64,000 nt of DNA from Verrucomicrobium spinosum DSM 4136 = JCM 18804 (lineage in GTDB: Bacteria; Verrucomicrobiota; Verrucomicrobiia; Verrucomicrobiales; Verrucomicrobiaceae). Position numbers and translations under genes: made by a program. The notes under the pieces are model-generated. The model was given only the letters and a program-made list of their open reading frames with translations. It was not told the origin of the DNA and did no database searches. Each line of letters begins with the position of its first letter. Position 1 is the stretch's first letter. Positions 18,881-38,335 of this stretch are shown one piece after another. Where the stretch lies: NCBI RefSeq assembly GCF_000172155.1, contig NZ_ABIZ01000001.1, positions 5,799,105-5,863,104 of the forward strand, written 5' to 3'.

Positions 18881-18927
18881 GCCTCCCTTTTCGCTCCCCT
18901 GCTGGAGCGAAAAGGGAGGCATTTTTT
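18881..18927 (+). terminator. Perfect 17-bp stem terminator
   Basis: GCCTCCCTTTTCGCTCC pairs perfectly with its complement over the loop CCTGCT, followed by A and six T. It closes the small membrane-protein pair. Confidence 0.9.
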
Positions 18928-18932
18928 GTGAT

Positions 18933-19031
18933 TCTGCAACACCATCAACACCCTATTACCAAGTTACACCAAAAAAAGCCCCCCTGCCTTTCTTGGTGAA
19001 CCTCCAAAAAGGGTGTTGAGGGTGTTGCAGA
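18933..19031. repeat. 22-bp inverted repeat with inner hairpin
   Basis: The left arm 18933-18954 begins TCTGCAACACCATCAACA; the right arm 19010-19031 is its reverse complement with one mismatch. The 55-base interior holds a second small stem, CACCAA with TTGGTG. It begins right after a terminator and precedes no gene closely, so it is more likely a mobile miniature or repeat element than a regulator. Confidence 0.65.
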
Positions 19032-19100
19032 GTGACAAATCCCCCTGATGTCTCAGCCGGTGACATCTTGTTTCGCCTGCGATGTCCTCACCTTCGCTGC

Positions 19101-25926: not shown

Positions 25927-26892
25927 GTGGTTAACAAAACCGCCCCCGTGATCGAATACCTGAAAATCTGCCGCCCGGACCATTGGTTGAAGAACATCTT
26001 CATCCTCTTTGGCCATGTCGTGGCCTGGGCCTTGGTGCTGGATTTCCAACTGGACTTCGGCCTGGTCATCACTGCCCTGCTCTCGCTGATCCCGGCCTGC
26101 CTCGTGGCCTCAGCCAACTACATTCTCAACGAGATCCTGGACGCTCCGTTCGACGCAGTCCACCCCACGAAGCGGCTTCGCGGCATTCCTGCTGGAAAAG
26201 TGAAGGTGCCCTACCTCTGGTGGCTCATGGTAGGACTCATTGTGGGGGCCTTCGCCCTCTGCGCCCTGTTCAAGTTCAACTGGGGTTACCAAGCCTCCCT
26301 CGCCCTGCTCCTGCTGAGCGGGCTGGTGTACAATGTGCCCCCCATCCGCCTGAAGGATCGCGCCTTCATGGACGTGATCGCAGAGTCCTTCAACAACCCC
26401 ATCCGGCTCTGGCTCGGCTACTACGCCCTGGTGCAGCCCAATCAGGTGCCGCCACTCTCTATTGTACTGGCCTGGTGGTTCTTCGGTGCCCTGCTCATGA
26501 CCGGGAAGCGCTACTCTGAGTTCCGCTTCATTGGCGATGTCTCCGTGAGCGGACGCTACCGCAAGTCCTTCCAGGTCTATACGGAGAAGAGCCTCATCCT
26601 GGCGATGATCACCTATGCGAATCTCTTCTGCTTCTGCACAGGAATCGCCATGGCGGTCTATCCCCGCTTAAACAACCTCGTTTTCGTGTTCCCGATGATC
26701 GTCATTGCAGTCATCGCCTACTTCCACCACGCGATGAAGGAGGAAACGGCCCGTCTGGAGCCGGAACAACTCCTCAAAAACCCTTGGATCGCCTTCTGGA
26801 CCATCGTCACGGGTGCCGCGACGATCGCCCTTTTGCTCGCCAAAAGCAACTATGCCAAGGGCGCTCACTTGCTTGGCCCCCTTCAGTGGTAG
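25927..26892 (+). CDS. UbiA family prenyltransferase (decaprenyl-phosphate phosphoribosyltransferase-like)
   Basis: 321 residues with about eight or nine membrane helices. The opening EYLKICRPDHWLKNIFILFG and the loop NYILNEILDAPFDAVHPTKRLRGIPAG match the branch of UbiA enzymes that transfer phosphoribose to decaprenyl phosphate (N-x-x-D-x-x-x-D-x-x-H-P-x-K-R). The second acidic motif is less clear (VIAESFNNPIRLW; the last Asp of the typical motif is replaced). The start is GTG at 25927; no ATG precedes the conserved region. It would supply lipid-linked pentose for envelope glycans if the assignment holds. Downstream lies a large inverted repeat. Confidence 0.75.
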   Translation: MVNKTAPVIEYLKICRPDHWLKNIFILFGHVVAWALVLDFQLDFGLVITALLSLIPACLVASANYILNEILDAPFDAVHPTKRLRGIPAGKVKVPYLWWLMVGLIVGAFALCALFKFNWGYQASLALLLLSGLVYNVPPIRLKDRAFMDVIAESFNNPIRLWLGYYALVQPNQVPPLSIVLAWWFFGALLMTGKRYSEFRFIGDVSVSGRYRKSFQVYTEKSLILAMITYANLFCFCTGIAMAVYPRLNNLVFVFPMIVIAVIAYFHHAMKEETARLEPEQLLKNPWIAFWTIVTGAATIALLLAKSNYAKGAHLLGPLQW

Positions 26893-26916
26893 GAGCGGCT
26901 TCGCCGCAGACAGGGA

Positions 26917-27080
26917 AAAGACACCAGACTGCCAGACGCCAGACATCAGACCTGAGTCTGGCGTGACTTGAGGATTCATTGGGCGAGAAAGACGCTAAAG
27001 AGGAAGGACCGTCGTAGGTCTCTTTCGTGTTCGCCCCGCTGTCAGGTCTGATGTCTGGCGTCTGGCAGTCTGGTGTCTTT
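26917..27080. repeat. Perfect 39-bp inverted repeat, 86-base spacer
   Basis: The left arm 26917-26955 (starts AAAGACACCAGACTGCCAGA) is exactly reverse-complementary to 27042-27080. The spacer contains further complementary pieces (GGGCGA with TCGCCC, AAAGAG with CTCTTT), so the element can fold into one long hairpin. A T-run follows the right arm. It lies between the prenyltransferase and the next gene and could also act as a terminator. Confidence 0.85.
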
Positions 27081-27146
27081 CTCTTTTTTTCAACACGCGC
27101 TTCCCCACCCTGTCTATCGCCTTCGACAGTGCAACCCCTGACAACC

Positions 27147-27788
27147 ATGAACGAATCCCCTGCTTCGGTGGCGGCTCCCGCGAATCCGCCTGTGCTCCGT
27201 CGTCGCTATACCTGGACCAAGCGACTCCTTGTGACGGGCTGTGTGCTCGTTGGCCTTGGTGCTTGGTGGTACCAGTACAATCTGAACGCCTCGCCCTTCC
27301 GGCCCGTCCAACTGACGGCCGCTGAACAGGAAGCGGTGCAGACCAAGCTGGCCACGCTGGAGAACCAGGTACAGTCCACAGACCCGGCCAAAACGCTGGT
27401 TCTCAATGAGCGTGAGATCAATGGGTTCTTGCAGCAGCAAGGTTTGGGGGACCAGATCAAGGTCAGCATCAACAGTGGCAACATTGGTGCCCAGTTTCTG
27501 ATCCCGGTGGACAAGGACTTTCCCGTCATGGGAGGCAGTACCGTACGGGTGAAGGTGGCGTTCAACACCCATTTGGATGCCAACCGTCAACTTGCCCTGA
27601 GTCTGGCAGATATCAGCGTGGGCGGGATCTCCCTGCCTAATGACTGGCTGGGGAACATGAAGGGTCTTAATCTATTGGACCACAACAAGATGGGTGAAGG
27701 TGACGCGCAATTTTTTAAAAGTTTCGCCGCAGGCATCAAAGATTTTCAACTTAAGAATGGCGAGTTGCGTCTGGTCTTGAACGACTGA
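27147..27788 (+). CDS. Hypothetical single-pass membrane protein
   Basis: About 213 residues, family not recognised. A Pro/Ala-rich cytoplasmic tail leads to a basic stretch (RRRYTWTKR) and one membrane helix (LLVTGCVLVGLGAWWY, residues about 27-43). The outer part has an LTAAEQ..LVLNEREINGFL segment and alternating beta strands (FLIPVDKDFPVMGGSTVRVKV), reminiscent of DUF2140/YpmS-like envelope proteins, but that is only a resemblance. The ATG at 27147 is preferred; upstream in-frame sequence overlaps the inverted repeat. The last 40 residues are AT-richer than the rest. No partner gene is close. Confidence 0.6.
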   Translation: MNESPASVAAPANPPVLRRRYTWTKRLLVTGCVLVGLGAWWYQYNLNASPFRPVQLTAAEQEAVQTKLATLENQVQSTDPAKTLVLNEREINGFLQQQGLGDQIKVSINSGNIGAQFLIPVDKDFPVMGGSTVRVKVAFNTHLDANRQLALSLADISVGGISLPNDWLGNMKGLNLLDHNKMGEGDAQFFKSFAAGIKDFQLKNGELRLVLND

Positions 27789-29368: not shown

Positions 29369-29439
29369 TCCAGCCGATTGCCAGTCTGCACTGCACTGAA
29401 GCCTGGACTTCCCTCCAGCTTCCAGCAAAGGCAGCTGCT

Positions 29440-29511
29440 TGTAGTTCAAACTTTAGTTTGCTCAGGACACGTCACCAAAGATCGACTGAGCAAACTAAAG
29501 TTTGAACTACA
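29440..29511. repeat. Perfect 26-bp inverted repeat
   Basis: The left arm 29440-29465 (TGTAGTTCAAACTTTAGTTT and the next six bases) is exactly complementary to 29486-29511, with a 20-base loop. Outward the arms extend imperfectly through CAGCTGCTTG and its complement to about 29432 and 29523. It lies between convergent genes and could serve as a bidirectional terminator or be a dispersed palindromic element. Confidence 0.8.
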
Positions 29512-29572
29512 AACAAGCAGCTGAGCCGCCTCTCATCCAGTTCACACCTCGAACCTCAACTGACGCACTGCG

Positions 29573-33909: not shown

Positions 33910-34031
33910 GCGTCTCCTAACTTCGCAGGCTGAAGCCTGTACTCCGTACAACTTCAGCCTCCAAAACCCGCACCGGACCTCATGTCTTGAGTCTTGTGTC
34001 TTGCAGTCTTGTGTCTCCCGCGCAGCGGGCC

Positions 34032-36279: not shown

Positions 36280-36454
36280 TTAACCACAGAGGCACAGAGG
36301 AATGACTTTTTTAGACAGAATTAACGGAATTAACAAAATTGGATTCAGTGGTCAGTTCCACCATCCAGAAGCTGAACCCTAATTCCGTAAATTCTGTTAA
36401 TTCTGTCTAAACCTCAGTTTCAGTGCTCTGTGTTCTCTGCGTCTCTATGGTTAA
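36280..36454. repeat. Long composite palindromic repeat element
   Basis: The outer arms TTAACCACAGAGGCACAGAG and TCTCTGCGTCTCTATGGTTA are imperfect complements. The inner arms 36310-36331 (TTTAGACAGAATTAACGGAA..) and 36390-36411 are complementary with one mismatch. A related single arm lies at 7546-7580. The element sits between convergent genes. Confidence 0.75.
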
Positions 36455-38088: not shown

Positions 38089-38170
38089 AGCGGACCCGTT
38101 GCGGGGAAACTTCAAAAGCCAAACTTCTAACTTCAAACTTCAGAGGTTCCCCGGGCCTCGTTGGTGCCCA

Positions 38171-38335
38171 CCCCTCCACCCCTCCACCACTCCACCACTC
38201 CACCACTCCACCACTCCACCACTCCACCACTCCACCACTCCACCACTCCACTACTCCACTACTCCACTACTCCACTACTCCACTACTCCACTACTCCACT
38301 ACTCCACTACTCCACTACTCCACTACTCCACTACT
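38171..38335. repeat. 8-bp tandem repeat, about 20 units
   Basis: Units of CCACCACT run to about 38250, then switch to CCACTACT up to 38335, nearly uninterrupted. The complementary strand is rich in regularly spaced GG pairs. The tract ends 80 bases before the LysR gene start. Because the unit is 8 bases, it opens long spurious reading frames. Confidence 0.95.

Follow-up and report, generated by a model that had tools for sequence, protein, structure and literature searches.

The long inverted repeat studied here is genuine, though its perfection is incidental: it belongs to a REP-like family of repeats with an unusual iterated core, dispersed over the genome of Verrucomicrobium spinosum DSM 4136. 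The family, which we call AGAC5 after its five AGAC units, consists of stop-linked, oriented, structured and positionally conserved elements. As it occurs in more than 100 places and very often right behind stop codons, it looks like a gene-end mark and not a one-off hairpin. The window, by which we mean the whole stretch of 64,000 nucleotides that was analysed, corresponds to positions 5799105-5863104 of the single contig (8,220,857 bases) that was searched as the organism's own genome.

The arms of the inverted repeat lie at 26917-26955 and 27042-27080. In an inverted-repeat search of the window they were complementary at 39 of 39 positions with 86 nt between them, and of the 20 inverted pairs listed under a 400-bp limit this one is the longest, the runners-up being 33 nt at 88%, 31 nt at 87% and 30 nt at 97%. 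The first-pass annotation had described a perfect 39-bp inverted repeat with a structured spacer, and both parts of that description hold. The RNA fold predicted for 26893-27095 reaches −119.7 kcal/mol, compared with −67.6 ± 4.5 kcal/mol in 200 dinucleotide shuffles (z = −11.5), and it includes additional internal pairing within the 86-bp spacer (26956-27041). At up to 3 mismatches, the two arms are the sole matches in the window to a 20-nt core of the arm (chance mean 0.01).

Each 39-nt arm is composed of one 37-nt AGAC5 member and two A's. The left element (plus strand, core 26919-26955, genome 5826023-5826059, 0 mismatches) has five AGAC units followed by CTGA and points away from an upstream gene of the UbiA prenyltransferase family (25927-26892, plus strand; PF01040, E = 2.2e-17), while the right element (minus strand, core 27042-27078, genome 5826146-5826182, 0 mismatches) has the same letters. 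Two nucleotides past the UbiA stop codon TAG (26890-26892) stands a hairpin, GCGGC-TTC-GCCGC (26895-26907, plus strand), directly followed by an extra AGAC at 26908-26911. Immediately past the right arm come CTC and a run of seven T's (27081-27090, plus strand), and the downstream gene (27147-27788, plus strand), which was without a Pfam family in the search, has its likely start ATG at 27147. A search of the window against Rfam 15 gave no match at gathering score. A further AGAC5 element in the window (33980-34016, minus strand) is solitary and lies behind a hairpin, CCCGCTGCGCGGG, 15 nt from a TAG stop codon.

The first-pass annotation had also taken the sequence to be repetitive and more than a mere terminator. 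The genome-wide search for the arm that it proposed bears this out: the arm was found all over the genome, with many single-arm matches elsewhere, so that its occurrence is not unique. The consensus of the family is AGAC-N3-AGAC-TN3-AGAC-N3-AGAC-N3-AGAC-N-TGA, usually followed by G; the five AGAC units of one element are thus set in 7-nt steps, with one 8-nt step containing a T, and are closed by YTGA(G). Allowing up to 2 mismatches, a search of the genome gave 146 copies and none of the reversed pattern; allowing up to 3, it gave 157 copies and one reversed match. Unit number varies among sites from 3 to 6, in addition to one long array. This array, in BvORR034 opposite position 4734216 of the V. 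spinosum genome (locus L141), has grown by repeats of a double unit of 15 bp (CAGACTGGCAGACAC), which points to slippage. Separately, at genome 1382021-1383500, AGAC elements stand in tandem at a spacing of nearly 490 bp with common flanks, forming a local duplication block near the AGAC5-flanked Y1 transposase gene discussed below.

The distribution of the family is narrow. In a scan of the phylum the pattern was present in 12 of 387 genomes, V. spinosum included, which argues against a general machinery. Among these carriers, genome G217 has 164 copies, four of the six genomes of one genus from another family have 7 to 25, and the remaining carriers have 1 to 6; the reversed pattern gave one match each in two further genomes. 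At the family level 8 of 68 genomes carry the pattern, with 126 copies in G394 and 22 in G391. Among the matches listed, exact copies came from Verrucomicrobium sp. BvORR034 and BvORR106 as well as from several metagenome-assembled genomes, part of which are labelled Bacteroidota; we infer that G217 is BvORR034 and G394 is BvORR106. Among the papers that searches of the open-licence PMC literature listed, none describes the AGAC5 family in its title or displayed abstract.

Anatomy and placement were studied on 137 copies contained in 1.634 Mb of the V. spinosum genome taken around matches, so that densities in this sample are not genome averages. Of the 137 copies, 93 are solitary, without an inverted partner over the 1.2 kb on their inner side. 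The repeated unit is therefore a single element with a direction, two of which, facing each other, make up the palindrome; the earlier proposal of a palindrome as the repeated unit accordingly falls. An inverted partner within the same distance is present on the inner side of 44 of the 137 copies and on the outer side of 5. Opposite-strand neighbours less than 300 bp apart are convergent, with their AGAC ends outward, in 11 cases and divergent in none.

A general likeness of paired arms is unsupported, as arms in the other pairs differ about as much as copies taken at random, for which the mean is 8.0 of 37 positions. The window pair, with 0 of 37 differences, is an exception, identical copies making up 0.16% of all pairs. 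Its identity would be explained by a recent local event, such as copying between the arms, or by two copies of one young subfamily, neither of which is needed by the family. The suggestion of a recently duplicated repeat may therefore fit the letters of the window copy, but not the arrangement, because two sister species also have the inverted pair in this position. Over orthologous pairs (8 comparisons at 7 loci, 12 loci of other genera or duplicates having been left out by name), 108 arm differences within species compare with 135 across species, a slight and unconvincing excess of likeness. Paired copies show a mean of 7.99 differences, compared with 8.05 for the rest, and 229 of 500 permutations gave a difference as large. 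The family thus departs from REPINs, which are mostly inverted doublets and better conserved than singlets: 93 of the 137 copies have no inner partner, and conservation does not differ.

Outside coding sequence, as predicted with a simple purpose-written gene-calling script, lie 127 of the 137 copies. A stop codon occurs within 40 nt on the AGAC side of 57 copies (random expectation 11.9 ± 2.9) and within 18 nt of 47 copies (6.9 ± 2.3); the expectation was derived from 2000 placements in the same gaps, with a maximum of 23 in the 40-nt test. On the TGAG side, two copies are equally near a gene's 3′ end, using the same 40-nt range. No stop codon was found within 40 nt on the AGAC side of 70 of the 127 intergenic copies. 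Distances from stop codon to array cluster at 13-15 nt, matching the hairpin in length, or close to 0 where the hairpin is missing. A typical stop-linked copy thus reads as a stop codon, few or no nucleotides, a GC hairpin of 5-6 bp with a triloop (missing in some copies), five AGAC units and YTGA(G), and the copies point away from the gene end. The stop codons used are TGA in 29 cases, TAG in 21 and TAA in 7 (background 614, 326 and 218, respectively).

The same asymmetry was observed in a cruder open-frame test, which overcounts gene ends. For the organism's own copies (n = 135) it placed a gene end beside the AGAC end in 61, beside the TGAG end in 13 and at a control position in 12; the corresponding figures were 44, 4 and 10 for BvORR copies (n = 100) and 38, 14 and 8 for copies of other genera (n = 77). 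Counted from the genes, 68 of 921 stop codons have an AGAC pair in sense and 3 have one in antisense over the next 60 nt; over 80 nt, without truncation at the next gene, the numbers are 70 and 7 of 1158. Another 3′ end is faced by 31 of the 57 stop-linked copies, compared with 382 of 1122 ends in the background, and of the 26 stop-linked copies that lie in tandem gaps, 21 have 120 nt or more between them and the following start. Stop-linked AGAC5 copies favour the ends of transcription units. With respect to replication, 80 of the 137 copies are on the leading strand compared with 609 of 1158 genes, a weak difference that depends on an origin and terminus guessed from GC skew over the stretches sampled. 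The codon-use score is slightly higher for genes that have a stop-linked copy (0.276 versus 0.235 per codon, P = 4e-5).

Directly ahead of the first AGAC, a perfect stem of 4 bp or more is present in 81 of the 137 copies, compared with about 7 in shuffles; apart from this small hairpin, most copies are solitary and self-unpaired. Among 342 distinct elements from V. spinosum and its relatives, 151 enclose a triloop in a perfect stem of 5 bp or more; 18 versions of this stem occur, among them CCCGC/GCGGG, CCGGC/GCCGG and GCCGC/GCGGC. This diversity indicates that stem letters change on both sides while pairing is kept. Pairing is also kept at orthologous sites; at the window site, the stem is GCGGC/GCCGC here and GCCGC/GCGGC in both sister species. 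The triloop is TNC in 136 of the 151 perfect stems, which corresponds to GNA on the opposite strand, and GNA loops are very stable in DNA. Single mismatches in the stem are 6 G·T versus 6 A·C and so give no wobble bias of the RNA type; the structure may therefore matter in DNA only, and RNA is not favoured over DNA.

Comparison with the sister species extends these observations to individual sites. Between the same two genes, both sisters have the hairpin, the left element, the inverted right element and the run of seven T's behind it, with differences in the variable letters. The spacer consists of other sequence there, the distance between the elements being 222 bp in G217 and 678 bp in G394 compared with 86 bp here, and the sister arms pair less well, with 12 of 37 positions differing in G217 and 5 of 37 in G394. 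Over 46 shared sites, divergence is 1.9% at the 24 fixed letters and 25% at the 13 variable ones, in flanks that are about 82-97% identical; part of the constraint on the fixed letters comes from ascertainment, the relatives' copies having been taken from an exact-pattern scan. Of the sites bracketed by both flanks, 47 of 50 are shared between species, in a sample biased upward by the choice of our own stretches around matches; from this count 7 loci (other genera, duplicates) were dropped, as were elements whose flanks fell on a different stretch or strand.

When sites were instead anchored in the relatives, 46 of 60 were counted as shared and 14 scored below 21 of 24; for this comparison 12 loci were dropped by name, together with alignments shorter than 200 bases, below 80% identity or ending more than 40 nt short. 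Reading the low-scoring sites by eye, we found 8 without AGAC-type sequence in V. spinosum and 6 with another unit number or a decayed copy. The clearest absence is at genome 400100 (locus L191), where the gene end and its TAG stop codon are shared: in BvORR034 they are followed by AGAC5, and in V. spinosum by a short-period repeat of the GTAAAAAGTGAAAAGTG type. The first-pass idea of a MITE-like element is weakly supported: 8 of the 60 anchored sites lack the element here, but 47 of 50 doubly flanked sites are shared in the biased sample, and of the target-site duplications it had asked for none was visible at the outer ends of the window pair when the sequence was read by eye.

Other short-period families were tested at stop codons as well, and CACAGAG and GAATTAAC were positive; arrays of AAAAGTG, CACGAA and ACACC gave 0, 0 and 0 sense matches past stop codons. 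Within 80 nt after the 1158 stop codons, AACCACAGAGGCACAGAG repeats number 9 in sense and 0 in antisense, and AGAATTAACGGAATTAAC repeats 12 and 1. These two often occur together, in V. spinosum at genes at 395188, 396746, 470227, 1384461, 1385839 and others, and the window has a convergent pair of both families at 36286-36451. The window contains further repeats: a 17-bp perfect hairpin with a T run (18881-18920), adjoining a 33-bp inverted repeat of the TTGCAACACC/GGTGTTG type (18925-19039); a 30-bp inverted repeat at 97%, TGTAGTTCAAACTTTAGTTTGCTCAG, with a 20-bp loop (29436-29515); and a tandem array in which about 21 units of 8 bp, CCACCACT/CCACTACT, follow one another in perfect phase (38168-38335).

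Among known repeats, AGAC5 invites comparison with the REP, BIME and REPIN sequences of the GTAG and CGTC super-families. According to the portions available of two reports on these (PMC3733652, PMC3116915), the likeness includes more than 100 intergenic copies, a small hairpin, a mostly downstream position relative to genes, opposite pairs and a copy-flanked transposase locus, of which AGAC5 has one. As described in the available part of PMC3733652, REPs as a class are located 3′ of genes and are believed to work at the RNA level. AGAC5 is likewise a short, dispersed, extragenic and high-copy repeat (146 copies; 127 of 137 outside coding sequence). It differs from what is described there in its core, which is an unpaired array of five AGAC units and not a palindrome, and in its stem of only 5-6 bp around a 3-nt loop; moreover, it is without a GTAG tag, occurs mostly as singlets and shows no general RAYT association among the loci scanned. 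In place of the REP palindrome core of 20-40 bp, the conserved part is the unpaired array, with a short-stem hairpin ahead of it in 81 of the 137 copies. Read on the opposite strand, the letters ahead of the hairpin are TGTCT in 53 of 79 copies and CGTCT in 16 of 79. CGTC REP families have TGTC variants, but with stems of 8-9 bp in the accessible text (PMC3733652).

REPs within 15 nt of E. coli stop codons are reported to stall ribosomes and lower translation, as stated in the available portion of PMC12306157. The AGAC5 hairpin resembles them in position, being also directly past the stop on the sense strand, and that portion describes no counterpart of the AGAC array. The TAACTGA direct repeats of Beggiatoaceae, of which one genome has 169 sets with a proposed post-transcriptional role, are, as far as the accessible part of PMC4679880 describes them, likewise intergenic 7-nt-period arrays oriented to genes; they are near-exact heptamers mostly before start codons, whereas AGAC5 has variable letters, stands behind stops and has a hairpin. 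Finally, the Y1 gene at genome 1373783, within long inverted repeats containing AGAC5, recalls the TIRYT-type Y1 loci in the available text of PMC3733652, from which it differs in being one locus only, the dispersed part being AGAC5 alone.

That locus bears on an alternative in which AGAC5 is selfish, REPIN-like mobile DNA. A convergent pair would be moved by a Y1 (IS200-like or RAYT-like) transposase via hairpins of single-stranded DNA, preferring stop codons as targets, and singlets would be remnants. We regard this as possible, though doubtful. The Y1_Tnp gene (PF01797; locus at genome 1373714-1374214) lies between two divergent AGAC5 copies inside the longer inverted repeats, as does its counterpart at the same locus of G217. 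Its protein is related by sequence to solved transposases such as that of ISHp608; none of its solved-structure matches bears the name RAYT, the names given being transposase and IS200-like. Against mobility of this kind, the full pattern (at 20 of 24) flanks both sides of only 2 of 45 Y1 loci (15 of the 39 PF01797 matches in V. spinosum and 30 in seven relatives), which represent one orthologous locus, and of 0 of the 8 loci scanned among 18 in G394, despite its 126 AGAC5 copies. Shorter AGAC arrays are found near two other Y1 loci of V. spinosum (L101 and L108). The 11-to-0 convergence of close opposite-strand neighbours, the GNA loop in 136 of 151 stems, the stem's lack of RNA-wobble bias and the 8 of 60 anchored sites without the element here would all suit mobile DNA, but paired copies, unlike those of REPINs, are not better conserved (7.99 versus 8.05), singlets outnumber doublets, and 47 of 50 doubly flanked sites are common to species in the biased sample. 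AGAC5 is therefore not filed under RAYT-driven REPINs, its link to a transposase resting on one locus, although an enzyme of this type may have played a part in the past.

A simpler reading, which we regard as unlikely, makes the window pair nothing more than a hairpin between two genes that terminates transcription in both directions or stabilises mRNA. The very stable fold, the gene end just upstream and the seven T's past the right arm here and in both sisters agree with such a role, but the sequence is not unique in the genome, most family copies are solitary and unpaired except for the small hairpin, and the G217 arms differ at 12 of 37 positions. A terminator scan, whose loop limit of 8 excludes an 86-nt loop, did not report the pair; its single hit, located in the spacer, was close to the chance level (1 hit, 0.4 expected). 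With its 86-nt loop, the pair is also no classical intrinsic terminator of GC stem, short loop and T run. Still less probable, in our judgement, is an origin as neutral debris, with slippage-prone short-period repeats gathering at gene ends where insertions are harmless. Unit numbers of 3 to 6, the long L141 array and the unrelated repeat at the orthologous stop codon of L191 speak for it, but debris would not be expected to show such exact placement (near 0 or at 13-15 nt), so strong a bias to sense, re-matched stems or AGAC letters that are nearly frozen.

AGAC5 is well established as a dispersed family; its mechanism we infer from placement and structure. The reading that we prefer, with a probability of about 0.5, is that of a REP-like 3′-end element whose core is unusual in being iterated and which probably works at the point where translation ends. 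A copy would be read at the 3′ end of the message during ribosome termination, the hairpin abutting the stop codon and the array behind it offering a putative one-sided binding site. By analogy with REP hairpins near E. coli stop codons, this module of hairpin and array could tune termination, message decay or 3′-end processing. Two facing copies can, as predicted, fold into one long hairpin, perfectly so in the window, where a T run follows; there, pair and T run may protect or end the UbiA transcript. More tentatively, and at odds that we consider low, stop-linked AGAC arrays might be docking sites for a candidate dedicated, multimeric RNA-binding protein or a GUCU-repeat RNA, with one contact per AGAC, in a post-transcriptional network joining many Verrucomicrobium transcripts at their 3′ ends, in which AGAC, CACAGAG and GAATTAAC would be among several interchangeable short-period families in the same slot.

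What began as a single hairpin thus becomes a family with a sharp rule, in which a hairpin and an AGAC array stand directly past stop codons, the place being kept across species while the letters between the AGAC units drift. Genes that have the element in one species and lack it in another or, in the one case of L191, have an unrelated repeat instead would provide a natural test of stop-proximal repeats, and REP-like biology would be extended to a phylum in which little is known of message ends.
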